Shown here: piece by piece, positions 10,588 to 38,710 of the stretch
Numbering within the stretch: position 1 is the stretch's first letter
How the letters are laid out: every line of letters starts with the position of its first letter
Translations under genes and position numbers: made by a program
Source of the DNA: Antedon bifida
Lineage: Eukaryota > Echinodermata > Crinoidea > Comatulida > Antedonidae
Direction: 5' to 3'
NCBI GenBank assembly: GCA_963402885.1
Contig: OY727099.1
Location: 3,956,001-4,020,000 of the forward strand
Length of the DNA stretch: 64,000 bases
The notes under the pieces: generated by a model
What the model was told of the DNA's origin: nothing
What the model saw: only the letters and a program-made list of their open reading frames with translations
Database searches by the model: none

Positions 10588-10657
10588 ATGTCTATCTTTC
10601 AAACCTTTACGCTGTTGGTACCATTGCTGTTTTCAAGCTGTTGTGTTTCCGTGAATG
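10588..10657 (+). CDS. LRR gene exon 1: signal peptide
   Basis: The exon encodes Met-Ser-Ile-Phe followed by a Leu/Val/Phe-rich core and SSCCVSVN, then the donor GTAAGA. The ATG is the first in frame and follows AAGAAG. Confidence 0.75.
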
Positions 10658-13600
10658 GTAAGATTGATTTAGCTTATTTTATTTTCAAACTGTCCAAATA
10701 AATAAAACCTTTCAATTAAAAAGTGTCATTTATAAGATATAGGGGCCTATAAAGTATAGGTTGCTGGCTTATGATATTGGTCAAACATTGAGGTAATGTT
10801 TCTCTAAATTAAACGTTGCATTTCAATGTTACAGAATGTTCACATATCACACCAATAGCAAACGCTGCAAATAATAGTTCTTTATTTGCTAAGTCTATTG
10901 TTTTATTATTTACACATTACGTAGCTACACGAGGACTCTTGTTCAGTTTATAACATAAATGATGTCACTATTCATTGACTCAGGGCCTCTGTTGGCCTAT
11001 TCAATTACAAAAACATTTATTTACGTTCAAAAGACAACGAGTAATAAAACAATAATGACAAGAGATAATTGAGAAACGGACGAAAGCAATTGGAGAGTAT
11101 TTTTAAAAAAAAATAACTTTATAAGCAAATATATATACAATGATGACATCATAGGTCACATATTTTGCAAAATATACCATTCTAGTTTTAGTATCCTGAA
11201 TACTGAACGTGTCCATTGTAGGTCCTATACCATAAATGTAGTTAAAAATAAGTTTAATCTCGAGGTGCAATAGAAAACATTATATTTATAAAACAATTAA
11301 ATTGTTATTCTAATATACGCTTAACGCTTAACTGGATATTAATTAATGTGTTGCTAAAATGTGTATTCTATAGGTCTATATCAAATTCACACACATTTCA
11401 TATTGTAGGCCTACTGTAACGCTGAAAGCAATTACATTACGATTGAAAGTAATTACAACTGTTTTAAAGCATTATCGTTGTTGTACTGCACACCGTATTT
11501 GTTTTTATTTCTGTATTTGTTTCTGTGTACCAATTTTCAGCAACTGGCTGCTGGCTGGTTTTGTATGTTTTATACCGTAGGCTTAATAATAAATAAATAA
11601 AATATACATTTTACTTTTTAATATTTACTTCTTTACTTTTATTATTATATTTGTTTTAACAGAAGCAAGTGTATGCCCAAAAGGTTGCAATTGTAACTAT
11701 GAGAGATATCGGGGCGCTCCTCCTAGTACTAGGTGTTATAATTGGAATACTACCATACATACACAACTTGTACTGTACAATGAGGATAATCCTATACAAG
11801 CATTGTAAGTAGTAGTTATTGTTTTTGTATTTTAACATTAATATTTGTCTATCACGAACAAATAACTTTCCCAGTGAGGGATAATAAATTATTTTGTTAA
11901 GTGTATGATGAATAAGTATAATAAATAATTGTATCTTAATGCTCTTGGGCGTAAGTAAGAACCATTTCCTCTCCCATAAGCTCGATTCTGGAGGTCCACC
12001 AAAACAAGAACTATAACGACTAAACCCAGCCAACATAACTCCCCTAATTAACAAAAATGTAAAATAACCATTTATACATGTAATTAACTCAATCCAGAAT
12101 AATTTCTGTAGACCAAAATCTAAGAATTCAATTGATAAAGGAACAGAAACAAAAAATGATGATGTCAATCTAAGTGATTGGTATGAGAATTAAAATGTTA
12201 AAACTATCTTATAATATATTTTGATATCATTCAAGTACAAGAGCTGACATACCCATGCAGTATATTGTTATGCTTTACCAATAAATACAAAATACGATAT
12301 ATTTGTTACTGCTCAGGCGCTGTATAGAACGGCCTGGCCAGAACGCGATTTTTGTTTTTCGTACAGAATTTGGAGACCCCTTATGTTAAAGATAGCCGAA
12401 GTACTTCCTAAATATAACTAAACCTAACCCTTTAAATAATCTCTCTCACTATAAAGTAAAAAGAATTTGCTCATGGGATTCGAACCCCATTCGAGAACAC
12501 AGACGGCTTGACAGAAAGAGTTTGCATTAGTGAATTGTAGATTAATTCTTACGTCACACCTTATTGATATGACTAATGAATATTCATGTTTATTTTGTGA
12601 TGTTTCATGTACGAAAAGAAATATCGCGGCCGGAACCATAGGTACATGACGGGATCACGACGGGACAACATTTTTACAAATATCTTATCTTATTTAAACA
12701 TATCCACATGTGAAAACTATATGTAAATTAAATACGAAAGACCACAACAGACACACACACAACAGTAATTTATAATATATAATGTGTAAGAGTTTTTATC
12801 TATGTTATACTTGCAATCTATTAATTAATTGTTGTCTGTGTATGAAAGTTAGAATGTTTAAATTATCTTGATTTACCATTTAGTATATATTGACATCATT
12901 TTAAGTTCAATAGTTATACCCATACAGTATAAAGTATAATGTAGTATTACTAATGTAAATAATTTAAACATTTGAGGAAACAGAAAGACAAAATTATTGA
13001 TATTGTAATTACTCCGTGTGCTTATTCTGTGCATTCTTTTTCTATTTGAGGTGGTTGTATGGTAATCAAATAAGTACATTGCCAGCCAATGCATTTGCTG
13101 GTTTGACAGCATTGAAAGAACTGTAAGTGTATTGCTTTGTTTATGTATATTGTCACAAAATGTATTTATGAATTTGCTTTTCCTTCATCCAATCTACATG
13201 GTAGATGGATGAAGATATTGTTTTTAACCACGTGACTATGTGGCGTAGGTTTTTTTATATATCTATATATATATTGTTGTTGTTTATATATAATTTGTTA
13301 TTGAGCTATGGAGAATTACTTTTTTTTCCGAAATAAAAGATGAATGAATATTAATTAATATTTCAATAGGTTAAAATTAGAACTTTAAAACCAGTGTGAA
13401 TTCATCCAGCATAAATAAATTACGCTATTCATTTTGTCAGATAAAATTATTAACAATTTAAAAATATTACAGGAATATTATTATGTTAATTCATTATTTA
13501 ATATTTCCATAGGATAAAAAATAGAATACTATATGTAAATTAAATACGAAAGACCACAACAGACACACACACAACAGTAATTTATAATATATAATGTGTA

Positions 13601-16600
13601 AGAGTTTTTATCTATGTTATACTTGCAATCTATTAATTAATTGTTGTCTGTGTATGAAAGTTAGAATGTCTAAATTATCTTGATTTACCATTTAGTATAT
13701 ATTGACATCATTTTAAGTTCAATAGTTATACCCATACAGTATAAAGTATAATGTAGTATTACTAATGTAAATAATTTAAACATTTGAGGAAACAGAAAGA
13801 CAAAATTATTGATATTGTAATTACTCCGTGTGCTTATTCTGTGCATTCTTTTTCTATTTGAGGTGGTTGTATGGTAATCAAATAAGTACATTGCCAGCCA
13901 ATGCATTTGCTGGTTTGACAGCATTGAAAGAACTGTAAGTGTATTGCTTTGTTTATGTATATTGTCACAAAATGTATTTATGAATTTGCTTTTCCTTCAT
14001 CCAATCTACATGGTAGATGGATGAAGATATTGTTTTTAACCACGTGACTATGTGGCGTAGGTTTTTTTATATATCTATATATATATTGTTGTTGTTTATA
14101 TATAATTTGTTATTGAGCTATGGAGAATTACTTTTTTTTCCGAAATAAAAGATGAATGAATATTAATTAATATTTCAATAGGTTAAAATTAGAACTTTAA
14201 AACCAGTGTGAATTCATCCAGCATAAATAAATTACGCTATTCATTTTGTCAGATAAAATTATTAACAATTTAAAAATATTACAGGAATATTATTATGTTA
14301 ATTCATTATTTAATATTTCCATAGGATAAAAAATAGAATACTATATGTAAATTAAATACGAAAGACCACAACAGACACACACACAACAGTAATTTATAAT
14401 ATATAATGTGTAAGAGTTTTTATCTATGTTATACTTGCAATCTATTAATTAATTGTTGTCTGTGTATGAAAGTTAGAATGTCTAAATTATCTTGATTTAC
14501 CATTTAGTATATATTGACATCATTTTAAGTTCAATAGTTATACCCATACAGTATAAAGTATAATGTAGTATTACTAATGTAAATAATTTAAACATTTGAG
14601 GAAACAGAAAGACAAAATTATTGATATTGTAATTACTCCGTGTGCTTATTCTGTGCATTCTTTTTCTATTTGAGGTGGTTGTATAATCAAATAAGTACAT
14701 TGCCAGCCAATGCATTTGCTGGTTTGACAGCATTGAAAGAACTGTAAGTGTATTGCTTTGTTTATGTATATTGTCACAAAATGTATTTATGAATTTGCTT
14801 TTCCTTCATCCAATCTACATGGTAGATGGATGAAGATATTGTTTTTAACCACGTGACTATGTGGCGTAGGTTTTTTTATATATCTATATATATATTGTTG
14901 TTGTTTATATATAATTTGTTATTGAGCTATGGAGAATTACTTTTTTTTCCGAAATAAAAGATGAATGAATATTAATTAATATTTCAATAGGTTAAAATTA
15001 GAACTTTAAAACCAGTGTGAATTCATCCAGCATAAATAAATTACGCTATTCATTTTGTCAGATAAAATTATTAACAATTTAAAAATATTACAGGAATATT
15101 ATTATGTTAATTCATTATTTAATATTTCCATAGGACAAAAAATAGAATTTTAAAAACAAGTGTAAATTCATCCAGCATGAATGAATTTTAATATTTTTTT
15201 TTTCAGATTAATTATAAGGAATCTTATTATCTTGTTCATGCATGCAATTTCTTAATTATTGTTTAGTGATTTTGTATGAGAATGAAAATTTAATGACTGT
15301 ATTATTTTACCATGTGATTCAAGTTTACTTGCAATCTATTAATTAATTGTTGTAGTATGTGTATGAAAATTAGAATGTTCAAATTATCTATCATTTAAGT
15401 ACAAGAGTTGATACTAAACCCATGCAGTATAACTATAATGTTACTAATGTAGATAATTTAAACATTTGATTGCCAGCCAATACATTTGCTGGTTTGGCAG
15501 CATTGGAATGGCTGTAAGTGTATTGCTTTTTTACATATTTACAAGTTTGTCTTTATTTACTAATTATATTACACATTAATAACAATTATTATTTTTATAG
15601 GTTAAAAATAGAACTTTAAAAACAGAATTTTAATATTATTTTTTCAGGTTAATTATAGGGAGTCTTATTTTTTTTTCAAATAGTATTTATTATTAGTATA
15701 TTAAATTATATTTTAAACTATTGTCTTGTCCATGCTTGCAATCACTGAATTATTGTTTAGTAATTTTGTATGAGAATGAAAATGTAAAGATTGTATTATT
15801 TTACCATGAAATTCAAGTGTACGAGTTTTTATCTATGTTTTACTTGCAATCTATTAATTAATTGTTGTCTGTGTATGAAAATTAGAATGTTTAAATTATC
15901 TTGATTTACCATTCAGTATATATTGACATCATTTGAATCAAGATGAATGAATGAATATTAATTAATATTTCAATAGGTTAAAATTAGAACTTTAAAACCA
16001 GTGTGAATTCATCCAGCATAAATAAATTACGCTATTCATTTTGTCAGATAAAATTATTAACAATTTAAAAATATTACAGGAATATTATTGTGTTAATTCA
16101 TTAATTAATATTTCCATAGGATAAAAAATAGAATTTTAAAAACAAGTGTAAATTCATCCAGCATGAATGAATTTTAATATTATTTTTTTTTCAGATTAAT
16201 TATAAGGAATCTTATTTTTTTTAAATAGTATTTATTATTAGTAATATTAAATAATATTTTTAACTATTATCTTGTTCATGCATGCAATCTCTTAATTATT
16301 GTTTAGTGATTTTGTATGAGAATGAAAATTTAATGACTGTATTATTTTACCATGTGATTCAAGTTTACTTGCAATCTATTAATTAATTGTTGTAGTATGT
16401 GTATGAAAATTAGAATATTCAAATTATTTATCATTTAAGTACAAGAGTTGATACTAAACTCATGTAGTATAACTATAATGTTACTAATATAGATAATTTG
16501 AACATTTGAGGAAACAGAGAGACACAAATAATTGATATTGTAATTACTCCATGCTTATTCTGTGCATTCTTTTCCTACTTGAGGTGGTTGTCTGGTAATC

Positions 16601-19600
16601 AAATAAGTACATTGCCAGCCAATGCATTTGCTGGTTTGGCAGCATTGACACGCCTGTAAGTGTATTGCTTTTTTACATATTTACAAGTTTGTCTTTATTT
16701 ACTAATTATATTACACATTAATAACAATTATTATTTTTATAGGTTAAAAATAGAACTTTAAAAACAGAATTTTAATATTATTTTTTCAGGTTAATTATAG
16801 GGAGTCTTATTTTTTTTCAAATAGTATTTATTATTAGTATATTAAATTATATTTTAAACTATTATCTTGTCCATGCTTGCAATCACTGAATTATTGTTTA
16901 GTAATTTTGTATGAGAATGAAAATGTAAAGATTGTATTATTTTACCATGAAATTCAAGTGTAAGAGTTTTTATCTATGTTATACTTGCAATCTATTAATT
17001 AATTGTTGTCTGTGTATGAAAGTTAGAATATTTAAATTATCTTGATTTACCATTCAGTATATATTGACATCATTTTAAGTTCAATAGTTATACCCATACA
17101 GTGTAAAGTATAATGTAGTATTACTAATGTAAATAATTTAAACATTTGAGGAAACAGAAAGACAAAATTATTGATATTGAAATTACTCCGTGTGCTTATT
17201 CTGTGAATTCTTTTTCTATTTGAGGGACTTGTCTGGTAATCAAATAAGTACATTGCCAGCCAATACATTTGCTGGTTTGACAGCATTGGAATACCTGTAA
17301 GTGTATTGCTTTGTTTATGATATTGTCACAAAATGTATTTATGAATTTGCTTTTCCTTCATCCAATCTACATGGTAGATGGATGAAGATATTGTTTTTAA
17401 CCACGTGACTATGTGGCGTAGGTTTTTTTATATATCTATATATATATATATATTGTTGTTGTTTATATATAATTTGTTATTGAGCTATGGAGAATTACTT
17501 TTTTTTTTCCGAAATAAAAGATGAATGAATGAATGAATATTAATTAATATTTCAATAGGTTAAAATTTGAACTTTAAAACCAGTGTGAATTCATCCAGCA
17601 TAAATAAATTACGCTATTCATTTTGTGAGATAAAATTATTAACAATTTAAAAATATTACAGGAATATTATTGTGTTAATTCATTAATTAATATTTCCATA
17701 GGATAAAAAATAGAATTTTAAAAACAAGTGTAAATTCATCCAGCATGAATGAATTTTAATATTATTTTTTTTTTTCAGATTAATTATAAGGAATCTTATT
17801 TTTTTCAAATAGTATTTATTATTAGTAATATTAAATAATATTTTAAACTATTATCTTGTTCATGCATGCAATCTCTTAATTATTGTTTAGTGATTTTGTA
17901 TGAGAATGAAAATTTAATGACTGTATTATTTTACCATGTGATTCAAGTTTACTTGCAATCTATTAATTAATTGTTGTAGTATGTGTATGAAAATTAGAAT
18001 GTTCAAATTATCCATCATTTAAGTACAAGAGTTGATACTAAACCCATGCAGTATAACTATAATGTTACTAATGTAGATAATTTAAACATTTGAGGAAACA
18101 GAGAGACACAAATAATTGATATTGTAATTACTCGGTGTGCTTATTCTGTGCATTCTTTTTCTATTGGAGACGGTTGGATGATAATCAAATAAGTACATTG
18201 CCAGCCAATGCATTTGCTGGTTTGGCAGCATTGGAAGAACTGTAAGTGTATTGCTTTTTTACATATTTACAAGTTTGTCTTTATTTACTAATTATATTAC
18301 ACATTAATAACAATTATTATTTTTATAGGTTAAAAATAGAACTTTAAAAACAGAATTTTAATATTATTTTTTCAGGTTAATTATAAGGAGTCTTATTTTT
18401 TTTCAAATAGTATTTATTATTAGTATATTAAATTATATTTTTAAACTATTATCTTGTTCATGCTTGCAATCTCTTAATTATTGTTAAGTAATTTTGTATG
18501 AGAATGAAAATGTAAAACCTGTATTATTTTACCATGAAATTCAAGTGTAAGATTTTTATCTATGTTATACTATATTCTAATTAATTGTTGTCTGTGTATG
18601 AAAGTTAGAATGTTTAAATTATCTTGATTTACCATTCAGTATATATTGACATCATTTTAAGTTCAATAGTTATACCCATACAGTATAAAGTATAATGTAG
18701 TATTACTAATGTAAATAATTTAAACATTTGAGGAAACAGAAAGACAAAATTATTGATATTGTATTACTCCGTGTGCTTATTCTGTGCATTCTTTTTCTAT
18801 TTGAGGTGGTTGTATGATAATCAAATAAGTACATTGCCAGCCAATGCATTTGCTGGTTTGACAGCATTGAAAGAACTGTAAGTGTATTGCTTTGTTTATG
18901 TATTTTGTCACAAAATGTATTTATGAATTTGCTTTTCCTTCATCCAATCTACATGGTAGATGGATGAAGATATTGTTTTTAACCACGTGACTATGTGGCG
19001 TAGGTTTTTTTTTATATATCTATATATATATATTGTTGTTGTTTATATATAATTTGTTATTGAGCTATGGAGAATTCCTTTTTTTTTTCCGAAATAAAAG
19101 ATGAATGAATGAATGAATATTAATTAATATTTCAATAGGTTAAAATTTGAACTTTAAAACCAGTGTGAATTCATCCAGCATAAATAAATTACGCTATTCA
19201 TTTTGTGAGATAAAATTATTAACAATTTAAAAATATTACAGGAATATTATTGTGTTAATTCATTAATTAATATTTCCATAGGATAAAAAATAGAATTTTA
19301 AAAACAAGTGTAAATTCATCCAGCATGAATGAATTTTAATATTATTTTTTTTTTCAGATTAATTATAAGGAATCTTATTTTTTTCAAATAGTATTTATTA
19401 TTAGTAATATTAAATAATATTTTAAACTATTATCTTGTTCATGCATGCAATCTCTTAATTATTGTTTAGTGATTTTGTATGAGAATGAAAATGTAATGAC
19501 TGTATTATTTTACCATGTGATTCAAGTTTACTTGCAATCTATTAATTAATTTGTTGTAGTATGTGTATGAAAATTAGAATATTCAAATTATTTATCATTT

Positions 19601-22600
19601 AAGTACAAGAGTTGATACTAAACTCATGTAGTATAACTATAATGTTACTAATATAGATAATTTAAACATTTGAGGAAACAGAGAGACACAAATAATTGAT
19701 ATTGTAATTACTCGGTGTGCTTATTCTGTGCATTCTTTTTCTATTGGAGGTGGTTGGATGATAATCAAATAAGTACATTGTCAGCCAATACATTTGCTGG
19801 TTTGGCAGCATTGGAAGTACTGTAAGTGTATTGCTTTTTTACATATTTACAAGTTTGTCTTTATTTACTAATTATATTACACATTAATAACAATTATTAT
19901 TTTTATAGGTTAAAAATAGAACTTTAAAAACAGAATTTTAATATTATTTTTTCAGGTTAATTATAGGGAGTCTTATTTTTTTTCAAATAGTATTTATTAT
20001 TAGTATATTAAATTATATTTTAAACTATTATCTTGTCCATGCTTGCAATCACTGAATTATTGTTTAGTAATTTTGTATGAGAATGAAAATGTAAAGATTG
20101 TATTATTTTACCATGAAATTCAAGTGTAAGAGTTTTTATCTATGTTATACTTGCAATCTATTAATTAATTGTTGTCTGTGTATGAAAGTTAGAATATTTA
20201 AATTATCTTGATTTACCATTCAGTATATATTGACATCATTTTAAGTTCAATAGTTATACCCATACAGTGTAAAGTATAATGTAGTATTACTAATGTAAAT
20301 AATTTAAACATTTGAGGAAACAGAAAGACAAAATTATTGATATTGAAATTACTCCGTGTGCTTATTCTGTGAATTCTTTTTCTATTTGAGGGACTTGTCT
20401 GGTAATCAAATAAGTACATTGCCAGCCAATGTATTTGCTGGTTTGACAGCATTGGAAGTACTGTAAGTGTATTGCTTTGTTTATGATATTGTCACAAAAT
20501 GTATTTATGAATTTGCTTTTCCTTCATCCAATCTACATGGTAGATGGATGAAGATATTGTTTTTAACCACGTGACTATGTGGCGTAGGTTTTTTTATATA
20601 TCTATATATATATATATTGTTGTTGTTTATATATAATTTGTTATTGAGCTATGGAGAATTACTTTTTTTTTCCGAAATAAAAGATGAATGAATGAATGAA
20701 TATTAATTAATATTTCAATAGGTTAAAATTTAAACTTTAAAACCAGTGTGAATTCATCCAGCATAAATAAATTACGCTATTCATTTTGTCAGATAAAATT
20801 ATTAACAATTTAAAAATATTACAGGAATATTATTGTGTTAATTCATTAATTAATATTTCCATAGGATAAAAAATAGAATTTTAAAAACAAGTGTAAATTC
20901 ATCCAGCATGAATGAATTTTAATATTTTTTTTTTTTTTCAGATTAATTATAAGGAATCTTATTTTTTTCAAATAGTATTTATTATTAGTAATATTAAATA
21001 ATATTTTAAACTATTATCTTGTTCATGCATGCAATCTCTTAATTATTGTTTAGTGATTTTGTATGAGAATGAAAATTTAATGACTGTATTATTTTACCAT
21101 GTGATTCAAGTTTACTTGCAATCTATTAATTAATTGTTGTAGTATGTGTATGAAAATTAGAATGTTCAAATTATCCATCATTTAAGTACAAGAGTTGATA
21201 CTAAACCCATGCAGTATAACTATAATGTTACTAATGTAGATAATTTAAACATTTGAGGAAACAGAGAGACACAAATAATTGATATTGTAATTACTCGGTG
21301 TGCTTATTCTGTGCATTCTTTTTCTATTGGAGACGGTTGGATGATAATCAAATAAGTACATTGCCAGCCAATACATTTGCTGGTTTGGCAGCATTGGAAG
21401 TACTGTAAGTGTATTGCTTTTTTACATATTTACAAGTTTGTCTTTATTTACTAATTATATTACACATTAATAACAATTATTATTTTTATAGGTTAAAAAT
21501 AGAACTTTAAAAACAGAATTTTAATATTATTTTTTCAGGTTAATTATAAGGAGTCTTATTTTTTTTCAAATAGTATTTATTATTAGTATATTAAATTATA
21601 TTTTTAAACTATTATCTTGTTCATGCTTGCAATCTCTTAATTATTGTTAAGTAATTTTGTATGAGAATGAAAATGTAAAACCTGTATTATTTTACCATGA
21701 AATTCAAGTGTAAGATTTTTATCTATGTTATACTATATTCTAATTAATTGTTGTCTGTGTATGAAAGTTAGAATGTTTAAATTATCTTGATTTACCATTC
21801 AGTATATATTGACATCATTTTAAGTTCAATAGTTATACCCATACAGTATAAAGTATAATGTAGTATTACTAATGTAAATAATTTAAACATTTGAGGAAAC
21901 AGAAAGACAAAATTATTGATATTGTATTACTCCATGTGCTTATTCTGTGCATTCTTTTTCTATTTGAGGTACTTGTATAGTAATCAAATAAGTACATTGC
22001 CAGCCAATGCATTTGCTGGTTTGGCAGCATTGGAAGTACTGTAAGTGTATTGCTTTGTTTATGTATTTTGTCACAAAATGTATTTATGAATTTGCTTTTC
22101 CTTCATCCAATCTACATGGTAGATGGATGAAGATATTGTTTTTAACCACGTGACTATGTGGCGTAGGTTTTTTTTTATATATCTATATATATATATTGTT
22201 GTTGTTTATATATAATTTGTTATTGAGCTATGGAGAATTACTTTTTTTTTTCCGAAATAAAAGATGAATGAATGAATGAATATTAATTAATATTTCAATA
22301 GGTTAAAATTTGAACTTTAAAACCAGTGTGAATTCATCCAGCATAAATAAATTACGCTATTCATTTTGTGAGATAAAATTATTAACAATTTAAAAATATT
22401 ACAGGAATATTATTGTGTTAATTCATTAATTAATATTTCCATAGGATAAAAAATAGAATTTTAAAAACAAGTGTAAATTCATCCAGCATGAATGAATTTT
22501 AATATTATTTTTTTTTTCAGATTAATTATAAGGAATCTTATTTTTTTCAAATAGTATTTATTATTAGTAATATTAAATAATATTTTAAACTATTATCTTG

Positions 22601-25600
22601 TTCATGCATGCAATCTCTTAATTATTGTTTAGTGATTTTGTATGAGAATGAAAATGTAATGACTGTATTATTTTACCATGTGATTCAAGTTTACTTGCAA
22701 TCTAATAATTAATTGTTGTAGTATGTGTATGAAAATTAGAATGTTCAAATTATCCATCATTTAAGTACAAGAGTTGATACTAAACCCATGCAGTATAACT
22801 ATAATGTTACTAATGTAGATAATTTAAACATTTGAGGAAACAGAGAGACACAAATAATTGATATTGTAATTACTCCATGCTTATTCTGTGCATTCTTTTT
22901 CTACTTGAGGTGGTTGTCTGGTAATCAAATAAGTACATTGTCAGCCAATACATTTGCTGGTTTGGCAGCATTGGAAGACATGTAAGTGTATTGCTTTTTT
23001 ACATATTTACAAGTTTGTCTTTATTTACTAATTATATTACACATTAATAACAATTATTATTTTTATAGGTTAAAAATAGAACTTTAAAAACAGAATTTTA
23101 ATATTATTTTTTCAGGTTAATTATAGGGAGTCTTATTTTTTTTCAAATAGTATTTATTATTAGTATATTAAATTATATTTTAAACTATTATCTTGTCCAT
23201 GCTTGCAATCACTGAATTATTGTTTAGTAATTTTGTATGAGAATGAAAATGTAAAGATTGTATTATTTTACCATGAAATTCAAGTGTAAGAGTTTTTATC
23301 TATGTTATACTTGCAATATATAAATTAATTGTTGTCTGTGTATGAAAGTTAGAATGTTTAAATTATCTTGATTTACCATTCAGTGTATATTGACATCATT
23401 TTAAGTTCAATAGTTATACCCATACAGTATAAAGTATAATGTAGTATTACTAATGTAAATAATTTAAACATTTGAGGAAACAGAAAGACAAAACTATTGA
23501 TATTGTACATTTGCTGGTTTGACAGCATTGGAATACCTGTAAGTGTATTGCTTTGTTTATGTATATTGTCACAAAATGTATTTATGAATTTGCTTTTCCT
23601 TCATCCAATCTACATGGTAGATGGATGAAGATATTGTTTTTAACCACGTGACTATGTGGCGTAGGTTTTTTTTATATATCTATATATATATATTGTTGTT
23701 GTTTATATATAATTTGTTATTGAGCTATGGAGAATTACTTTTTTTTTTTCCGAAATAAAAGATGAATGAATGAATGAATATTAATTAATATTTCAATAGG
23801 TTAAAATTTGAACTTTAAAACCAGTGTGAATTCATCCAGCATAAATAAATTACGCTATTCATTTTGTGAGATAAAATTATTAACAATTTAAAAATATTAC
23901 AGGAATATTATTGTGTTAATTCATTAATTAATATTTCCATAGGATAAAAAATAGAATTTTAAAAACAAGTGTAAATTCATCCAGCATGAATGAATTTTAA
24001 TATTATTTTTTTTTTTCAGATTAATTATAAGGAATCTTATTTTTTTCAAATAGTATTTATTATTAGTAATATTAAATAATATTTTAAACTATTATCTTGT
24101 TCATGCATGCAATCTCTTAATTATTGTTTAGTGATTTTGTATGAGAATGAAAATTTAATGACTGTATTATTTTACCATGGGATTCAAGTGTAAGAGTTTT
24201 TATCTATTTTATACTTGCAATTTATTAATATTGTTGTCTGTGTATGAAAGTTAGAATGTTTTAATTATCTTGATTTACCATTTAGTATATTTTGACATGA
24301 TTTAAGTACAATAGTTAAAACTATAATACCCATGCAGTATAACTATAATGTAGTATTACTAATGTAGATAATTTAAACATTTGAGGAAACAGAAAGACAA
24401 AAGTATTGATATTGTAATTACTCCGTGTGCTTATTCTGTGCATTCTTTTTCTATTGGAGGTACTTGGATGACAATCAAATAAGTACATTGCCAGCCAATG
24501 CATTTGCTGGTTTGTTTTATTAACAATTAATAACAAATCTTTTTTTTTTTTAAATAGTATTTATTATTGGTAATATTAAATAATATTTGAAACTATTACC
24601 TCTTTTACATTTAATCACTTAGTTATTGTAGTAATTTTGACTTGCTCCAAGTCTGTATTCATTGTTTTTAGTTTATTTATTTATATTTATTTCAATTTTT
24701 GTCTGAAGATATTTATCATTTTATTAATATTAAGACAATAAACTCCGTCTGGGACCCAGACTATAATTTTGTATGCGAATGAATATGTATAGACTATATT
24801 GTTTTACCACAGTTTGTCATCATTAAAGTAAAATTGTTGACACTATACACACTTAAAACAAAGGGTGCAAATCTCTACCTAAAAAGATGCAAATCGATGC
24901 AATAATAGCAGCTCCTTTTAAGGTGCACAACTGCACCTTTGATGAAATGTGCAATTTTGAACGCTGATGAAGGGTGCTATGATTCTGCTTTGGAGTTCAT
25001 ATTTGCACCATATAAGGTGTGATTTTCAACCCTAAAAGGTGCAAGCGAAATGCAACAATAGCAGCTCCCCAAAGGAGCAAAATTAAACCTCTAAATAAAG
25101 GTGCAACTTTACACCCTCATATAAGGTTCAATAATGCTCTTCAAATTTCTGTTAAAAAGGTGCACAAATAAAAATCACCAAAATAAAAAAAATATTGATT
25201 AAACTTGGTATAATTTTATTCAACTTGAAAACATTACATTATTCAATTCAACTGCTGAATTAATGGATGGCATTTACCAGTCTACTAGATTTGCAACTCA
25301 ATCAATTTATAGACCATATATATAGGTAACCACTCCCAATCAACCTTTGTTAACACGGCAATAACGTCATGGAATCACCTGCCAAAATTGATACAGTGTT
25401 CAGAAAACATAAATCAATTCAAAAGAAATATCAGGAAACATCTCAAAGAGGTTATGCTAGAAAGATTATAATTTATATTTTTATTGTTACTACATGTGTT
25501 CTGTTTATATTGTAAATGTTTATTCTTGGTGTTGTTATCCTTAAGGGCCACAATGGAAATAAGTTTGACCTTTGGTTACTTTTTTGTGTTACCCTGAATT

Positions 25601-28069
25601 CATTCTTTGTATTTTTTTTTTATGTTGTGATTTTATGAATTCGAATAAAGAAATAAAAAAAAGTCTCTGCACCTTAAATAGAGTGTGGCCATCTCTTCTC
25701 AAACCAAAAATACGCCTTTTGATACATACAGGTATTTTTGCTTCTGTTTTTGATATTCATGCACCACATCTATGCCAGCAGACACTTTTAGCCTTCAACA
25801 ACAACGCTGAGATCTTCTCTCTTGAAGACATTGTCTTAAGTCTGCAACATGATACTGAAAAAAAACATTTAATGTCTGTGTAAAGAGGTCAGAAGTATTT
25901 GTACACTACTAATGCATCATTATCATCAGTTAAAAAACATGTAAACGAAGATTAATTAAATCAGACTTTGAATAGGTTATCTTGTATTTTTATAAAAGTT
26001 AATCACTGCCGTAGAAAAAAATCTATAAAAAATAATGTTTTCAGTTATAAAATGACAAAATAAATGGTTAAATTCAACCAAAAATCCATTGGCTTATTTG
26101 TTTGTTTAAATTATAGTTTTTCAGTATATTCAATATATTTTTTTCGATTCAATTTTTGGTAAAAGTGGATAACTGACATTAAATTGGCATATTCAACAAA
26201 AAATGTTTGTTTAATTATTTATTCAGGGGGACAAAACATCTTTAAGATTAATTCCAACATGGCATAATTCTTGAGACATTCACACATTAACCAACAATGT
26301 ATAAAATATCTTATAACTTTGGTTATTTAATATTACCTCAATCTCATTGTCTTTTTGCTTAATAAATGTAGATGACAACTTTGACAGTATTCTCTTCTTA
26401 TCTCCATATATCCGAAAAAGTGTTCTTGTCTGGTTCACCTTTTCCAAACAGTTTCACCTTATAATAAACTGTGCCATTACCTTAACCGCTCGGCCATTTT
26501 ACTCGCTTCAATAAAAACAGCAGCATAAGAGTTGACATTATACTCATGCTTTATTAAATGTCTTAGGCCACAGATAACAAGTCATGAAAATTAATTGTTA
26601 TAACTCAGTTATGGAATTAAAGTTTTATAAACGATTAACATTTTGTAATCATTATTTAACAATTTGATTTTGTACGGCATCCCAGAAAACTAAATAGTTT
26701 GTCTATCAATTTATCTTTCAACAGAAATTTAGATAATAATGCTATAACTACCATTGAACCAGATGCCTTCTCTTCTTTTGCTTCATCACTTCATCATTTG
26801 TAAGTTAGCACTGTAATTTATATACAGTATGACTGCTTATGATTATTTGGTTTTCGTTTTTATGTTTTGATGTGATTAACAGAACAATTTGATAAATAAT
26901 TTACAGTTTATACTAAGTAGGCCTACATTTGAGAATTCTTGCGTACTTCTTAGGTACGGTGGGCATCGAAGCGACGACTTCCAAGAAATCACAATATTGG
27001 CATTCAATACCTCTTATAAACAAAGATTTACGATTTAATTGTTAACATACAACTATCTGTAGTTGTCAAAATCTACTTATTGTTACTTCTGTACACAATA
27101 AAAGTATACATGTTTAAAATATGTGCATTGAATATTAAAGAACATCAGGTAGAAAATTACTGAGTAAATAATTAATTAATTAAATTTACCTACTACAACC
27201 ATGATCACCTTATTAATATATTTTCTATCTATTTTTTTTAATCACTTTGTAAGTAAAATAAAGAAATCTGAAACCTTGGCTTCTACCATTATATACAACT
27301 TTAATTATTTTTATTATTTTAGGTATCTCAGAGGCAACAGTTTACAGGTTTACAGTGATAAGACGTTTAAAGAATTGGCAGACTTGGCAGAATTGTAAGT
27401 AATGATAGATCTGCATTTGACAATATGCTATTATCAAAATACTATTTTTGTAGTTACTGGGGAAGGCCTAAGTATTGTGAATCATAATCTTATATCAAAC
27501 ATAGTGGTTTACTGCAACTAAGTTTATTTACTAATTTCCTATGTTTCCAGAGTTAAGCTTGAGGACCGACGATAATAAATATCTATAGGCTTACCTTTTA
27601 CCTTTATTTGCCTATTCTAATCAATTTAATAAGAACTTGATAGCGTTATTATAGTTTGTAGTTAAATTGTCTTGTTGGTAAATTCAAATAATTCTAATGG
27701 CACTGGTTCCGTCATAGGAGGATTGTTTTCTCTTTTGGTCATTGGCATTTCTACGTCTGACTTGACATCATCACATATTTGCAATTGTAACGTCATACGC
27801 TAGATGTTTGATGTTGTGACAACTTTTTTGTAATCATTATTATTTATACATATTGATTTGGATGTTTATTATACAATATTTTAGTTAGGTGTGTATTACC
27901 ACTATAAACGTATTATACTGCTATTTCACTTGCTTATTTTTACAGCACCTCGGATTTCCCACGTCTGTGTTGTGTTGTGAGTGTCAGTGATACCTGCAAA
28001 CCCGTCGATGCCTCTGCTTCTTGTGACTATTTACTAAATAGGCATTTGCATAGTTGTCCTCTTAACTAA
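10588..28069 (+). CDS. Secreted leucine-rich-repeat protein with tandem single-LRR exon array
   Basis: Exon 1 (10588-10657) encodes a signal peptide, MSIFQTFTLLVPLLFSSCCV. Exon 2 (11663-11804) encodes an LRRNT cap with CPKGCNCNY and a later Cys. Twelve intact array exons between 13051 and 22981 each add one LRR of the type WLYGNQISTLPANAFAGL. Two unique LRR exons (26725-26799, 27323-27394) and a Cys-rich end exon (27946-28069, stop TAA 28067-28069) follow. If all intact exons are joined, the product is 447 residues with no frame break. Every internal junction splits a codon, almost always Leu, after its second base, so any array exon may be skipped or added without a shift. One 72-75 nt exon per LRR with phase-2 introns is the known layout of LGR/glycoprotein-hormone receptors. 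No membrane segment is visible, so secretion is inferred. Which exons are used in mRNA cannot be told from DNA. Confidence 0.8.
11663..11804 (+). CDS. LRR gene exon 2: LRRNT cap and first beta strand
   Basis: Acceptor TTTTAACAG, donor GTAAGT. The product has C-x3-C-x-C-x13-C spacing typical of LRR N-terminal caps, then QLVLYNEDNPIQAL leading into the repeats. It enters in phase 1 and leaves in phase 2. Confidence 0.8.
12424..12640. repeat. Possible tRNA-derived SINE remnant
   Basis: The minus strand carries GGGGTTCGAATCCCAT (12477-12492 region), which resembles a tRNA T-arm/B-box. No matching acceptor stem or anticodon arm could be found, so this is not a tRNA gene. Confidence 0.35.
13051..13122 (+). 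CDS. Array LRR exon A
   Basis: 72 nt, phase 2-2. Reads WLYGNQISTLPANAF then AGLTALKEL. Acceptor TTCTATTTGAG, donor GTAAGT. Followed by the hairpin-bearing intron type. Confidence 0.85.
13183..13214. other. Conserved intronic hairpin (first of eight copies)
   Basis: CTTCATCC-A-ATCTAC then a short loop then GTAGAT-GGATGAAG can form a stem of about 14 bp with one bulge. The same sequence follows exons A, B, C, F, H, J, L and the remnant N, always about 60-65 nt after the donor. A second short stem, CCACGTGACTATGTGG, follows about 25 nt later. Confidence 0.6.
13863..13934 (+). CDS. Array LRR exon B
   Basis: Identical in sequence to exon A (13051-13122) and flanked by nearly identical intron. 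Confidence 0.85.
14675..14743 (+). CDS. Array LRR exon C, one codon shorter
   Basis: As exons A and B, but 69 nt: the Gly codon before the conserved Asn is deleted, giving WLYNQISTL. The frame is kept, but the LxLxxN spacing of the repeat is broken by one residue. Confidence 0.8.
15470..15513 (+). pseudogene. Array remnant D: LRR exon without acceptor or first half
   Basis: TTGCCAGCCAATACATTTGC through the donor GTAAGT is intact, but the upstream part joins directly to AACATTTGA of the intron. The acceptor and the first third of the exon are deleted, so it should not be spliced in. Confidence 0.75.
16584..16655 (+). CDS. Array LRR exon E
   Basis: 72 nt, phase 2-2. Reads WLSGNQISTLPANAF then AGLAALTRL. 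Acceptor TCCTACTTGAG. Followed by the short intron type, which lacks the hairpin. Confidence 0.85.
17225..17296 (+). CDS. Array LRR exon F
   Basis: 72 nt, phase 2-2. Reads DLSGNQISTLPANTF then AGLTALEYL. Hairpin-type intron follows. Confidence 0.85.
18170..18241 (+). CDS. Array LRR exon G
   Basis: 72 nt, phase 2-2. Starts with A rather than G, so the split codon still gives Leu. Reads RLDDNQISTLPANAF then AGLAALEEL. Confidence 0.85.
18806..18877 (+). CDS. Array LRR exon H
   Basis: 72 nt, phase 2-2. Reads WLYDNQISTLPANAF then AGLTALKEL. Hairpin-type intron follows. Confidence 0.85.
19750..19821 (+). CDS. Array LRR exon I
   Basis: 72 nt, phase 2-2. Reads WLDDNQISTLSANTF then AGLAALEVL. Confidence 0.85.
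20391..20462 (+). CDS. Array LRR exon J
   Basis: 72 nt, phase 2-2. Reads DLSGNQISTLPANVF then AGLTALEVL. It is the 3.17-kb-shifted counterpart of exon F: introns match almost base for base, while the exon differs at five bases in two codons (Thr to Val, Tyr to Val). Confidence 0.85.
21333..21404 (+). CDS. Array LRR exon K
   Basis: 72 nt, phase 2-2. Reads RLDDNQISTLPANTF then AGLAALEVL. Counterpart of exon G, differing at two codons. Confidence 0.85.
21969..22040 (+). CDS. Array LRR exon L
   Basis: 72 nt, phase 2-2. Reads YLYSNQISTLPANAF then AGLAALEVL. Counterpart of exon H, differing at five codons, all amino-acid-changing. Confidence 0.85.
22910..22981 (+). CDS. Array LRR exon M
   Basis: 72 nt, phase 2-2. 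Reads WLSGNQISTLSANTF then AGLAALEDM; the split codon at its end becomes Met instead of Leu. Its acceptor and first codons match exon E, its middle matches exon I. Confidence 0.8.
23507..23538 (+). pseudogene. Array remnant N: LRR exon without acceptor
   Basis: Intron text up to GATATTGTA joins directly to CATTTGCTGGTTTGACAGCA and a good donor. About 90 bp, including the acceptor and the first half of the exon, is missing relative to exons F and J. Confidence 0.75.
24460..24515 (+). pseudogene. Array remnant O: LRR exon without donor
   Basis: Acceptor CTATTGGAG and codons YLDDNQISTLPANAFAGL are intact, then the sequence runs into TTTTATTAACAATTAATAAC with no GTAAGT. This marks the 3' edge of the amplified array. 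Confidence 0.75.
24840..25180. repeat. Dispersed GGTGCA/TGCACC motif cluster
   Basis: About a dozen short motifs (AAGGTGCA, GGTGCAA, TGCACC) recur in both orientations, with two AGCAGCTCC blocks, inside the LRR gene between the array and exon 26725. It looks like a degenerate minisatellite or old element. No coding potential was seen. Confidence 0.5.
25235..25660 (+). mobile_element. LINE (CR1/L2-like) 3' end
   Basis: 25328-25471 reads as the end of a non-LTR retrotransposon ORF (AITSWNHLPKLIQ, then INQFKRNIRKHLKEV and a stop), the usual tail of such reverse-transcriptase proteins. A 3' UTR ending GAATAAAGAAATAAAA follows. 5'-truncated and inactive. Confidence 0.7.
25980..26250. mobile_element. 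Terminal-repeat element family 3 fragment
   Basis: It shares CAATTTTTGGTAAAAGTGGATAAC and GGGGACAAAACATCTTTAA with the longer copy at 50207-50744. The left end is unclear. Confidence 0.4.
26461..26511 (-). mobile_element. tRNA-derived SINE head fragment
   Basis: The minus strand reads GCGAGTAAAATGGCCGAGCG followed by GTTAAGG, the A-box part of a tRNA(Leu/Ser)-like SINE also seen at 56520 and 57035. Confidence 0.55.
26725..26799 (+). CDS. LRR gene: unique LRR exon P
   Basis: 75 nt, phase 2-2, acceptor TTTCAACAG, donor GTAAGT. Reads NLDNNAITTIEPDAF then SSFASSLHHL, a 25-residue LRR clearly diverged from the array consensus. Confidence 0.8.
27323..27394 (+). CDS. LRR gene: unique LRR exon Q
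   Basis: 72 nt, phase 2-2, acceptor TTATTTTAG. Reads YLRGNSLQVYSDKTF then KELADLAEL, a diverged LRR lacking the usual Leu-Pro. Confidence 0.75.
27946..28069 (+). CDS. LRR gene last exon: Cys-rich cap resembling an LGR hinge, then stop
   Basis: Acceptor TATTTTTACAG. The product begins TSDFPRLCCVVSVSD, continues TCKPVDASASCDYLL, and ends HSCPLN-stop. The FPxxCC...CxP...CxxLL pattern resembles the hinge that precedes the seven-helix domain in LGR/glycoprotein-hormone receptors, but translation stops where the first helix would begin. The family link is inferred from cysteine pattern and exon layout only. Confidence 0.65.
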
Positions 28070-28109
28070 AATATTGAACAAGGATAATTCAGGTAACAAT
28101 AACAATGTT

Positions 28110-28115
28110 AATAAA
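28110..28115 (+). other. Candidate poly(A) signal of the LRR gene
   Basis: AATAAA lies 41 bp after the stop. A second one at 28285-28290 is also possible. Confidence 0.5.
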
Positions 28116-28943
28116 GCCCAAACCATTGTCATCACTAACTTTGCCGCTGATGGAAATGTATTTAATAATCATCATTTCAAGTGCAGATTTACGGTATTCA
28201 GAAGTTGCAAGAGAATGACAATTTTCTAATCCCATGTGATGTGTTAATCCTATATGATTTGTTAATCCTACTTGATTTGTTACTAATAAAACATTTATAT
28301 TATTTTGTAGATAATTATTATGGTAAAAAGATGGTTTATCTTGCGCTACCCTGAAAAGAAGTCGTTTTCAAGAAAGGGAGTATCCTGTAGCTTGATCTGT
28401 TTAATCCTGTGGGATTTGTTAAATACACTGTCTGATCTGATTTGTTAATTTATGAATTTTTTTAATTACTGCTTAAAGTTAAATTATTTATTATTCGCGG
28501 TACTATACGTACCATTTATTTGTATCAACAGAATATATATATACAGTATTTTACTTTTACAAGAATATTTCTATAACTTTAATCTAAATCATAATGAACG
28601 GAAAACGTATTTGATACAAAACGGATATGCAATGAGCCGAAGCTCTTAAACGCATTACCCTATAAGTTAAAGTTAAAGTTAAATTATTTTGTCTTTTTAC
28701 TTAATTTATACTTATACCTTTTTATGTAATCATACTAACATTGTAAAATACATTTAACATAATATTACTTGATACGTTCAATTAATTTGTTTATATAACA
28801 TTTATGGTTCACAGTGATACATTAAAAACACACATACATAATATATTAACGAATTCTACTGTAGGTGATCCGTGTATGTACACAAAGTGATGTCACACGG
28901 ATATGTGCGTATTGTATTCAGCTTTTGTTCTTGAGTAACTGAC

Positions 28944-29212
28944 CTGACATGGAGTGGAGTTGTGGCTTGGTGGTTATGATGCTTGGCTACCACTCCAAGG
29001 GTCCTGGGTTCAAGTCCCGTCACATGTCAGGATTTTTTCTAAGGACAAAATTACAACTCCCCTCCCAAAGACTTGTAATAAGACTTTGTTTATGTAGAGC
29101 ATCTTGTGTATATGTTTGTCTTGTGAACCTCTGAGGGTCCCTAATGATCAGCATTTGCTGGATGGATCACCCTCTTTAAATATGGTAAAAAAAAAAAAAA
29201 AAAAAAAAAAAG
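28944..29212 (+). mobile_element. tRNA-derived SINE with poly(A) tail
   Basis: The head has an A-box-like GTGGCTTGGTGGTTATGA and a B-box-like GGGTTCAAGTCCCG, bounded by CTGACATG and CATGTCAG, which would pair as an acceptor stem. The body ends CATTTGCTGGATGGATCACC, followed by an A tract at about 29187-29211. A reverse copy of the body end lies at about 54105-54160. Confidence 0.75.
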
Positions 29213-36023: not shown

Positions 36024-38710
36024 TCAAGGTGGAGTATCAGACTTAGATTGTCTTGTTGATTGAGCACTTAGTTTTCTCGACGCTTGTGAAGTAACAGATG
36101 ATGCCCTAGATTTCACTCTAGATCTTAATCTGTTGGACCGACTACTGCCTGGCGGTTCCTGAGGTGGAGATGGGGCAGTTGTGTTTCTACCGGAATTCAC
36201 TTGCTGCTTTTTTCCTTCGTCTGGCTGGGCTATAGTCTCATTCGTTGCTACATCACCCGGGTCATTGGTATCTGGTGTGTTGGGTTCAATATCGGGTGTA
36301 AGCGGTTTATCGTCACATGTATTTGTATCATCTTCTGTTGTTCCATCTGGTTTCGTTGGCTTTTCATCCTCTTTTCCAGAACCGGTTTCTTCCATTTTTA
36401 GATTTTTTTCCGGCATTTGTGTATGCTCATTTTGTTCTTTAACTGGTGTTCCAGGTTTACTTTCTGTTGAAACTGAATTTTTCTCTTGTTCACCTGTATT
36501 TATATTGGGTGTTGTCGGCTTTTCATCTTTAATTGTATCCTCCCTAGCAGGAGACATCTTATCTTCTTCGGTGTCTTCTAAACATTTTGTCTCTTCAGTG
36601 TTGTCTGGCTTCGTTTCATCTTGTGCATTATTATTATTATCTGGTGTTGATGGCTTGCTATTCACATGGTCGTTATTTTCTTTCTTTTCTTGGTCTTCAT
36701 TTGTCTGTGATTCTGAGGGCGTTGGTTTATCGTCTGATTCGCCAGGTTCAGTGTCTAGTTGACCGCTAACCACTTCTGATATTTTCTTATCTCCGTTATC
36801 CATCGGTGTGTTTTCCATCTGTTTAGCTTCTGATGCAATTGCATTCTAATAAAGAAAGTAACAGTATCATGGTAGTTTTTATAATAACATTTTATGTGTG
36901 TAGTATTTTTATAGGATTATCGTATTATTTATTATCAGAGGCGGGTCCAGGGGTACCGATGGGGTCTCTGTTGCGTAAGAGTAAGCTAGAGATACCGGAT
37001 AAAGACTGCTAGCTGCATAATATTTATTCACAGTAGGCCTGCCTGTTTATGGTTTACACTAGATGGTTATTTCAACTTGAATATTGTTTATATTTTCATA
37101 GCACTAACTCTAACTAGTTCGTGGCTTTTTGATGTTAACAAATAATTAAAAAAATAGAGCGAGAATTGATTTATTGGTACAGCAATGGTGACATATCCAG
37201 GGTTTTGAGGTACTCTGTGCTGATATTAACCTAATTTTAAATATATATTTTTCCTTTACTCTTGAGATTTTTTAGTGCTAGAAGTGAAATTGATACCTTG
37301 TCCAAGTTCTCAGAGGTAGGTCTATCTGTTCTCTTCATGAGATGTTGTAGTTCATTTAAAGACTCTTGCACTGCTTGTAGTTGCTGTAATACCGTCACAA
37401 AATGATCTTTCATGGACTGTAGTAGACAAAATAATGTAACAATACATATATATATAGATACATATACAGATTATCTTGGACAGTTTCAATTCGCAACCGT
37501 TATAAACACTATTAATAATAATACTATCACCGTTATGCAGTAGATAAGTGATAGATCAATTTCAATTTACTCAGAGTCCTCTTGAGAAACAAACTCCATA
37601 ACTTACACCAGCTAGTTTCTAAATTATGATTACTTTTTAGATTGTGCATATAAATGTAGAATAACTGTTTTTACATTAATTACTTCTTGCATAGAAGAAG
37701 TCATTACCTATTCATGCATGCAGTGTATACTTATTATTATTTTTTTTAATTAGTACCTATCTTACTTACCGATTTAACGACGGTTGAGAAGAACTCGTAT
37801 GTTCGCTCATCTGGGGGTAATTTCAGAGAATTTTTCTTTTTGTTATCTTCCTATTAATCAAAATATACATAACACATCAGACAAGTAAAATACAAGTATT
37901 GTAGAAATCCGAAGTCCTGAATTCATTAATAATATAACATATGCACAATTTTACAAAGAATAACCATAATATTCTACTCTAAATTTAATTGTATTTATGA
38001 AATATACGTTATTCACCTTAAACACTTCAGTGCCAATCAAAGACTTTTACGTAGCTCTCGAAAAAAAAAATCCGTAATAGCATTAGCTAATATAAACTAT
38101 ACTTATATAAAATAAAATATATGAAATAACTTTCATTAAGAATAAATACCGGTTCTTTGTCTTTTTCTTTGTTTTCTTTTACTTGTTCTTCCTTCTCTTT
38201 AATTTGATTTTTCTTTTCCTTTTCTGCAACATCTTTGTCAGCCTTTTCTACCACATTAGTATCTTCTTTTTCTGCCATATCTTTATCACCCTTTTCTGCC
38301 ACATCTTTATCACCTTTTTCTGCCACATCTTTGTCACCATTTTCTGCCACATTTGTATCTCCTTTTTCCATCACATCTTTTTCGCATTTTTCTACCACAT
38401 CTGTATCACCCTTTTCTGTCACATCTTTACTACTCTTTTCAACCATATGTTCGTCATTATTCTTTCCTTCTGCAACTTTCTCTTCCTTTACAGACTTTTC
38501 TTCATCAGTCTTTTCTGAAATTTCCTCTTTATTACTGTCAGTTACATTTTCGTTGGTACTCTCTGATAGACCTTCTGCTTTCTCATTACCAACATCTCCT
38601 TGCACTTGTTCTATTATGGTAGTTTCTTCTTTATTCTTATTTCCTTCTTCTGTAGAATTCGCTTCCTCCACTTCTCCAGCATTTTTCTGCTCTGAATTAT
38701 TCGTAGACAT
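36024..38710 (-). CDS. Acidic, disordered coiled-coil protein, unrecognised (cluster gene 2)
   Basis: Exons: 38150-38710, 37770-37850, 37297-37416, 36024-36845, all phase 0; 527 residues. Exon 1 is highly charged (Glu/Lys) and holds about ten degenerate 8-residue repeats of the type EKGDKDVA. Exon 2 (LKLPPDERTYEFFSTVVKS) and exon 3 (VLQQLQAVQESLNELQHLMK) are the only ordered-looking parts; exon 3 has coiled-coil heptads. Exon 4 is Pro/Thr/Glu-rich with repeated KPTTP/KPSTP-type motifs and ends in a basic Ser/Arg tail (RSNRLRSRVKSRASS). An in-frame ATG at 38725 would add five residues. The family is not recognised. The strongly biased exons are supported by open frame length (561 and 822 nt) and good splice sites. 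Confidence 0.7.
38225..38440 (-). repeat. 24-bp coding minisatellite
   Basis: The DNA unit encoding roughly EKGDKDVA is repeated about nine times with drift in exon 1 of cluster gene 2. The three central units (38277-38348) are closest to each other. Confidence 0.75.

Follow-up and report, generated by a model that had tools for sequence, protein, structure and literature searches.

Signs of diversifying selection and exon-centred recombination in the leucine-rich repeat exons of putative LGR-type receptor genes of the crinoid Antedon bifida

A stretch of 64,000 nucleotides from the crinoid Antedon bifida (contig OY727099.1, positions 3,956,001 to 4,020,000; referred to here, at its full length, as the window) carries a gene that, on the evidence of its sequence, is an LGR-type (GRL101-like) receptor gene, in which an array of short exons encodes leucine-rich repeats (LRRs). 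Among closely related array exons of this gene and of five sister genes, nonsynonymous divergence (dN 0.089) greatly exceeds both synonymous divergence (dS 0.0135) and the divergence of the flanking introns (0.0121; 43 close exon pairs), in agreement with the positive selection proposed in the original prediction, which had been made from the letters of the window alone. The pattern is most probably the product of diversifying selection on the concave ligand face of the repeats, acting together with recombination centred on the exons. In the mechanism proposed, natural selection would favour novel amino acids at the concave ligand face, and recombination at the exons, by unequal crossing-over among repeats and by short conversion tracts within and between loci, would spread a common set of codon variants and homogenise the exon cores. 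The phase shared by the exons would let repeats be gained, lost or skipped with the frame intact.

Exon and intron divergence between recent duplicates

A fuzzy search with the repeat core located 14 array exons, named A to N, on the plus strand between 13051 and 24531 (all coordinates of the window gene refer to this strand). Eleven of them are 72 bp long with an AG acceptor and a GTAAGT donor, the exceptions being C, which is short, and D and N, which are dead; twelve are thus usable. One exon corresponds to one 24-residue repeat, and all the intact array exons are in one phase. Recent tandem duplications (15943..23507), with a two-exon unit of 1.58 kb and a four-exon unit of 3.16 kb, are evident from self-alignment, which reaches 96.6% at an offset of 1582 and 98.4% at an offset of 3162. 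The larger unit pairs exon E (16584..16655) with I (19750..19821), F (17225..17296) with J (20391..20462), G (18170..18241) with K (21333..21404), H (18806..18877) with L (21969..22040), and I with M (22910..22981), the last being a mosaic with an E-like 5′ end and an I-like middle. The coordinates and splice sites of F to M are as originally predicted, each exon having 72 bp and AG and GTAAGT borders.

The base differences per 72-bp pair amount to 10 in E/I, 5 in F/J, 2 in G/K, 7 in H/L and 6 in I/M, the last four counts being exactly those of the original prediction. The differences in those four pairs had been described as nearly always amino-acid-changing, and in the five pairs none is silent: the 19 changed codons of the five pairs are all nonsynonymous, with no synonymous change over 84.5 synonymous sites, and nine of them have two or three bases altered, including the TAC to GTA replacement already noticed in F/J, which is real. 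Thirteen of the 19 are codons 1, 3, 4, 22 or 23, and the remaining six comprise three changes at codon 14 and one each at codons 11, 19 and 24. For F/J, G/K, H/L and I/M, the share is 9 of 13, and the clustering at the strand-side x positions of the repeat is thereby borne out.

The introns next to these exons differ by 0–1.7%, and their near-constancy had likewise been seen correctly. Introns E–F and I–J are identical (0/569) though both adjoining exons differ; F–G and J–K differ at 3/870 positions, G–H and K–L at 1/564, and H–I and L–M at 12/869, with 6/524 differences downstream of I and M and 11/641 upstream of E and I. When 15943–20345 is aligned with 19105–23505, 63 mismatches are found in 4397 aligned bases, 30 of them inside the five exons (30/360, as against 33/4037 outside exons; Fisher p = 6e-17, with exon I used twice, in E/I and I/M). 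The four disjoint pairs E/I, F/J, G/K and H/L give 24/288, compared with 4/2003 in the three inner introns. One correction concerns the change at codons 3 and 4 in E, I and M, which is not isolated: in both I/M and E/I it is coupled to intron changes situated 4–36 bp before the exon, and the whole has the appearance of a conversion tract some 50 bp long. In addition, codon 23 is GTA (Val) in the adjacent exons I, J, K and L, and CGC, TAC, GAA and GAA in their counterparts E to H; this run of Val along the concave face may reflect spread or parallel selection.

Variation across the sister genes

An exact 27-base core of the exon occurs 50 times in the genome (315.6 Mb, 27 contigs), always on the contig of the window (C12), and the reversed control pattern does not occur; outside the window and the cluster, this exact core was the only query. 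Of the matches, 11 belong to the window, and the other 39 fall, on the minus strand, between 4.23 and 4.34 Mb, in a cluster about 0.25 Mb from the window gene. The 130 kb examined there, C12:4.225–4.355 Mb, contain 42 array exons, 41 of them with both splice sites, in five genes with 6, 2, 8, 12 and 13 intact array exons. All five possess an intact seven-transmembrane (7TM) exon, a cap exon and a pair of fixed 3′ LRR exons, and signal-peptide exons have been located in four of them. Their hinge and 7TM regions are 76–81% identical to GRL101-like proteins of Antedon mediterranea over 346–381 aligned residues. After Antedon, the named organisms that come next among the protein matches are Anneissia. 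The five 7TM exons show only 2–10 differences in 1035 bases, with dN of 0–0.0075 and dS of 0.009–0.022, dN being lower than dS in all ten gene pairs on few changes each, so that the signalling half of the sister genes looks conserved. In one of them (g3), a truncated array exon without a donor follows the array and precedes the 3′ LRR exons (C12:4290956, locus L015); exon death therefore occurs also in genes with an intact 7TM exon.

Variation was studied in 52 array exons, 11 of them the normal exons of the window and 41 the intact ones of the cluster; the set excludes C, D and N as well as the truncated exon at 4290956. Six different residues are seen at codon 1, five at codon 3, six at codon 4, five at codon 22 and ten at codon 23. 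On the other hand, 11 of the 24 codons are invariant in DNA, silent base included, and the extra synonymous states of the whole set number only four. The exons were linked by the similarity of 200 + 200 bp of flanking intron in a minimum spanning tree of 51 edges, of which 43 were kept at a flank distance of at most 5%. Over these 43 edges, the flanks diverge by 207/17107 (1.21%), and whole-exon dN and dS are 0.0887 and 0.0135, computed with the number of synonymous sites held at 16.9 for every exon; the full tree of 51 edges gives 2.75%, 0.0917 and 0.0155, respectively. In codons 1, 3, 4, 22 and 23, dN rises to 0.295 and dS is 0.049, from 4.8 path-averaged changes over 99 sites; in the remaining codons, dN is 0.027 and dS 0.008. 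Replacement changes outnumber silent ones by 210 to 10 (p = 1e-14, a nominal value since tree edges share exons). Ordinary relaxed constraint was considered and rejected, as it cannot make nonsynonymous sites diverge faster than introns, and the ratio of dN to flank divergence is about 7 for the whole exon and 24 for the five codons. The original prediction had set intron divergence against synonymous exon divergence, and the two are about equal (1.21% and 1.35%); this is the neutral expectation for both, and the telling contrast is therefore that of nonsynonymous divergence with either of them.

A control outside the arrays is provided by the two fixed 3′ LRR exons of each sister gene, which are single-copy and vary at the same positions: seven of their 11 variable codons are codons 1, 3, 4, 22 or 23, and one more, codon 24 in the longer exon of 25 residues, occupies an equivalent place. 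Near-identical tandem repeats are hard to assemble, and an assembly or sequencing artefact might be suspected in the window. However, errors would strike introns and silent sites too, and the same picture is given by 41 exons in five other genes and by single-copy exons, which leaves such an artefact a practically negligible probability.

A targeted hypermutation of a few codons, somatic or in the germline, would dispense with selection, and it would suit the finding that two or three bases are altered in 47 of the 164 codon changes, against a flank divergence of 1.2%. A mutator blind to meaning would nevertheless leave silent changes. In all 52 exons the third base of codons 3 and 4 is T (dead exon N, with GAC at codon 4, had been dropped), and over the 43 edges they show 54 replacement changes and no silent one, which has a p of 0.0017 if one in nine changes were silent. 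Moreover, there is mostly one codon per residue and position (the exceptions being GGC/GGG at codon 1 and AGA/CGC at codon 23), which suits the reuse of existing variants. Hypermutation is accordingly regarded as highly improbable.

Position of the variable residues in the repeat

The place of the variable codons was examined in an AlphaFold model of an Antedon paralogue (P0128), with a mean predicted local distance difference test score (pLDDT) of 74.6 and an LRR part mostly above 90; by structure matching, the model resembles LGR4, TSHR and RXFP1. A short strand is predicted at the equivalents of codons 23, 24 and 1 in six of its seven repeats, the seventh being a low-confidence stretch, and codons 22, 3 and 4 adjoin it. 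The five hypervariable codons (1, 3, 4, 22 and 23) thus form or flank a predicted β-strand. In LRR proteins, this strand lines the concave face, and from the predicted strand the five codons would lie on the concave side.

Signs of recombination between exons and loci

The 52 exons contain 43 distinct five-residue combinations, made from 24 left and 21 right parts. No association is seen between the left and right halves (mutual information no higher than in shuffles, p = 0.97), and of 105 pairs of biallelic sites, 19 fail the four-gamete test. Exchange between loci is suggested by another comparison. The introns of window and cluster are about 32% apart, but the divergence falls to 5% just upstream of the exon and to 3% over the first 18 bases after it, and the synonymous divergence of the array exons, in the 19 codons other than the five, is 0.6%. 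Outside the array, the signal peptide, the two LRR exons and the hinge have a pooled dS of 0.376 and dN of 0.125 between window and cluster (dN/dS 0.33). The low synonymous divergence of the array exons is best explained by exon-centred conversion between loci. The unassociated halves, the four-gamete failures and this near-identity of silent sites across strongly diverged introns give substance to the short-tract gene conversion that the original prediction had named beside positive selection. As to the parts themselves, three of seven left and three of six right parts of the window also occur in the cluster, and no full combination is shared.

Recombination could also be the whole story, with an old palette of codon variants reshuffled without present positive selection, the introns being homogenised and the exon variants persisting as ancient polymorphism. 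The shared palette and its free assortment, the mosaic exon M and the gradient of divergence around the exons are all compatible with this. Nevertheless, conversion carries silent and replacement variants alike, so that the replacement excess is not due to conversion alone, and neutral variation would include silent variants in proportion, whereas the distinct extra states are 36 replacement and 4 silent (p = 0.026). In the first fixed 3′ LRR exon, which is outside the array, dN is 0.068 and dS 0.011 among the five genes; in the second, no such excess appears. Because of the replacement excess and of the variation of single-copy 3′ LRR exons at the same positions, shuffling without selection is considered unlikely, and selection combined with exon-centred recombination is preferred.

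Fate of the window copy

The window gene begins with a signal-peptide exon (MSIFQTFTLLVPLLFSSCCVSVN; 10588..10657) with an open frame, a GTAAGA donor and 82–85% DNA identity to the signal-peptide exons of four of the five cluster genes, followed by an LRRNT-type cysteine cap exon (11663..11804) with AG/GTAAGT borders and a fitting phase, which matches the cap exons of all five. The array opens with exon A (13051..13122), its identical copy B (13863..13934) and C (14675..14743), which has 69 bp and is one codon shorter, in frame. Dead exon D (15442..15513) has lost its 5′ half and splice acceptor, the first bases of that span being intron fused to the surviving part of the exon; dead exon N (24460..24531) has lost its 3′ part and splice donor, similarity stopping near 24514. 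Two fixed 3′ LRR exons (26725..26799, 75 bp; 27323..27394, 72 bp) have counterparts in the five cluster genes and, together with the cysteine-hinge exon (27946..28069), match GRL101-like LRR G-protein-coupled receptors (GPCRs) of Antedon mediterranea. The hinge exon ends in an in-frame stop (28067–28069) at the expected start of the first transmembrane helix (TM1). With D and N excluded, 17 exons join in phase into a 447-residue protein that ends at this stop. A Pfam scan of this model finds LRR families, and no LDLa (the sister genes were outside that scan), 7TM or ROC-COR domain; weak matches to CSTF_C and DHU1_N look like chance. A bacterial or protist origin, raised by the best LRR matches, was rejected: those matches reflect generic LRRs, and the non-array exons and the 7TM region match crinoid GRL101-like proteins. 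The window is 70% A+T, and its gene structure is animal-like.

No intact 7TM reading frame is present in the window copy. Downstream of the hinge, a decayed 7TM exon (28041..28360) has lost most of TM1, carries deletions and further stops up to 28360, and lacks TM3–TM4 and the C-terminal part. This remnant is far more diverged from the intact sisters than the newest array duplicates are among themselves, and it bears several independent lesions, for which reasons the 7TM region was probably lost before the latest array duplications. The reading frame of the gene is still open over a secreted ectodomain, and the differences that the newest duplicates already show at the five codons, with the pooled dN/dS of 0.33, suggest that a soluble ectodomain may still be in use. 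On balance, it is slightly more likely than not that the copy still makes a soluble LRR protein, such as a decoy or a binding protein. When model residues 355–447 were used to look for a closely related secreted protein, the one weak match was an LRR protein of little likeness, and the known Antedon relatives were missed too, so that this search carries little weight.

Alternatively, the window copy might be a plain pseudogene, with exon differences left over from selection on its sisters and copied into it by conversion. The broken 7TM region, the dead exons D and N and the shortened C suit this view, as does the appearance of exchange of array exons between loci. Against it, borders and frame are intact in all 17 exons of the ectodomain model (which leaves out D and N), dN/dS is 0.33 over four non-array pieces, and the newest window duplicates already diverge at the five codons with introns that are 0–0.4% apart. 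The cluster contains none of the five-residue combinations of the window, so simple copying is insufficient, and the 7TM lesions appear older than the last array duplications. The pseudogene reading retains a substantial probability, though short of even.

Several points weigh against selection and exchange as an account of these exons and of the window copy. Most of the variation is strand-side, but codons 11, 14, 17 and 19, which are not beside the strand, vary somewhat too. The second fixed 3′ LRR exon alone has a dN of 0.057 and a dS of 0.062, hence no excess. Edges of the spanning tree have exons in common and are not independent, and the test of left against right halves used distinct combinations only, in a sparse table with little power for weak linkage. 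The synonymous identity between loci could instead reflect splicing-signal constraint inside the 72-bp exon. With two dead array exons and a decayed 7TM region, the window copy may be a dying gene; and the dN/dS of 0.33 also takes in the time before the 7TM loss and the changes along the sister-gene lineages, and was computed without the LRRNT exon, whose length differs.

Other features of the window

Just 3′ of the broken receptor gene, on the plus strand, lies a sequence (28950–29211) with a promoter-box-like stretch and an end of 25 A, which we take to be similar to a short interspersed element (SINE) derived from transfer RNA (tRNA); ARAGORN finds no tRNA or transfer-messenger RNA genes in the window. 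On the same strand, an open frame at 54138–54524 contains a partial kinesin motor domain (PF00225, E 1.4e-5, under the family cut-off) and is probably an exon of a neighbouring kinesin gene. Finally, two open frames rich in charged residues are found on the minus strand, at 36024–36845, without a Pfam match, and at 38087–38728, with a 24-bp tandem repeat and a weak match below cut-off.

Comparison with known systems and biological meaning

The general plan of these receptors, with an LRR ectodomain, a cysteine hinge and a rhodopsin-type 7TM region, is that of the LGR, RXFP and TSHR receptors, which the paralogue also resembles in structure; hinge and 7TM are present in all five cluster genes, and ectodomain and hinge only in the window copy. 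Classic LGRs are conserved hormone receptors, whereas the repeats described here are numerous, near-identical and hypervariable at few codons. Another comparison is with the variable lymphocyte receptors (VLRs) of lampreys and hagfish, which consist of 24-residue LRR modules varying mostly at residues of the concave β-strand, are assembled somatically from cassettes, and are either glycosylphosphatidylinositol-anchored or secreted. In Antedon bifida, by contrast, the modules are ordinary spliced germline exons, and no somatic step was seen, none having been looked for. An LRRNT-like cap and a cysteine hinge are present; the hinge, which is of the GRL101-like type, may or may not correspond to an LRRCT cap. 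Exon-shuffled hypervariable LRRs are already known, and here they occur in an animal receptor family of LGR type.

The closest known parallel is provided by the LRR-ROCO genes of the brown algae Ectocarpus and Saccharina (PMC11378527). In these genes, each LRR is encoded by one 72-bp phase-2 exon, exon shuffling and positive selection at concave-face sites have been reported, and a recognition role has been proposed; LRR-only genes are put forward as a reservoir, and LRR exons of similar size and phase are cited for gonadotropin receptors (PMC11378527). The likeness lies in one LRR per 72-bp exon, all in the same phase, with an excess of replacements, the concave side being deduced from a predicted strand in the crinoid. 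The difference lies in the remainder of the protein, which is a ROC-COR GTPase in the algae and, in Antedon, an animal 7TM receptor with a signal peptide and cysteine caps, which leads us to expect the variable face outside the cell. As for GRL101 proper, PMC8286064 reports one such gene in crinoids and sees in it a possible insulin-like growth factor receptor, and "GRL101-like" is therefore used here as a label and not as a statement of orthology. The window protein also differs from GRL101 proper by the absence of LDLa from its Pfam scan, which concerns this one copy.

If the role of these genes is to be guessed, immunity of some type or allorecognition seems likeliest, the ligands being perhaps pathogens, self or mates, prey or hormones. 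More tentatively, they may form a germline repertoire of recognition GPCRs on the plan of immune receptors, in which a constant 7TM region is combined with concave LRR residues reshuffled exon by exon among neighbouring genes. The copy without a 7TM region would then be a soluble version or a bank of donor LRR exons, and alternative splicing of in-frame exons could multiply the repertoire. The system is of biological significance because an animal GPCR family presents a sharp split between constant signalling parts and hypervariable binding modules, and because the footprints of selection and of exon-centred exchange are both readable at one locus. The resemblance to the brown-algal design would be a convergence between very distant lineages; and, if these genes recognise microbes or self, a recognition repertoire would have arisen from a receptor class that is not usually deemed immune.

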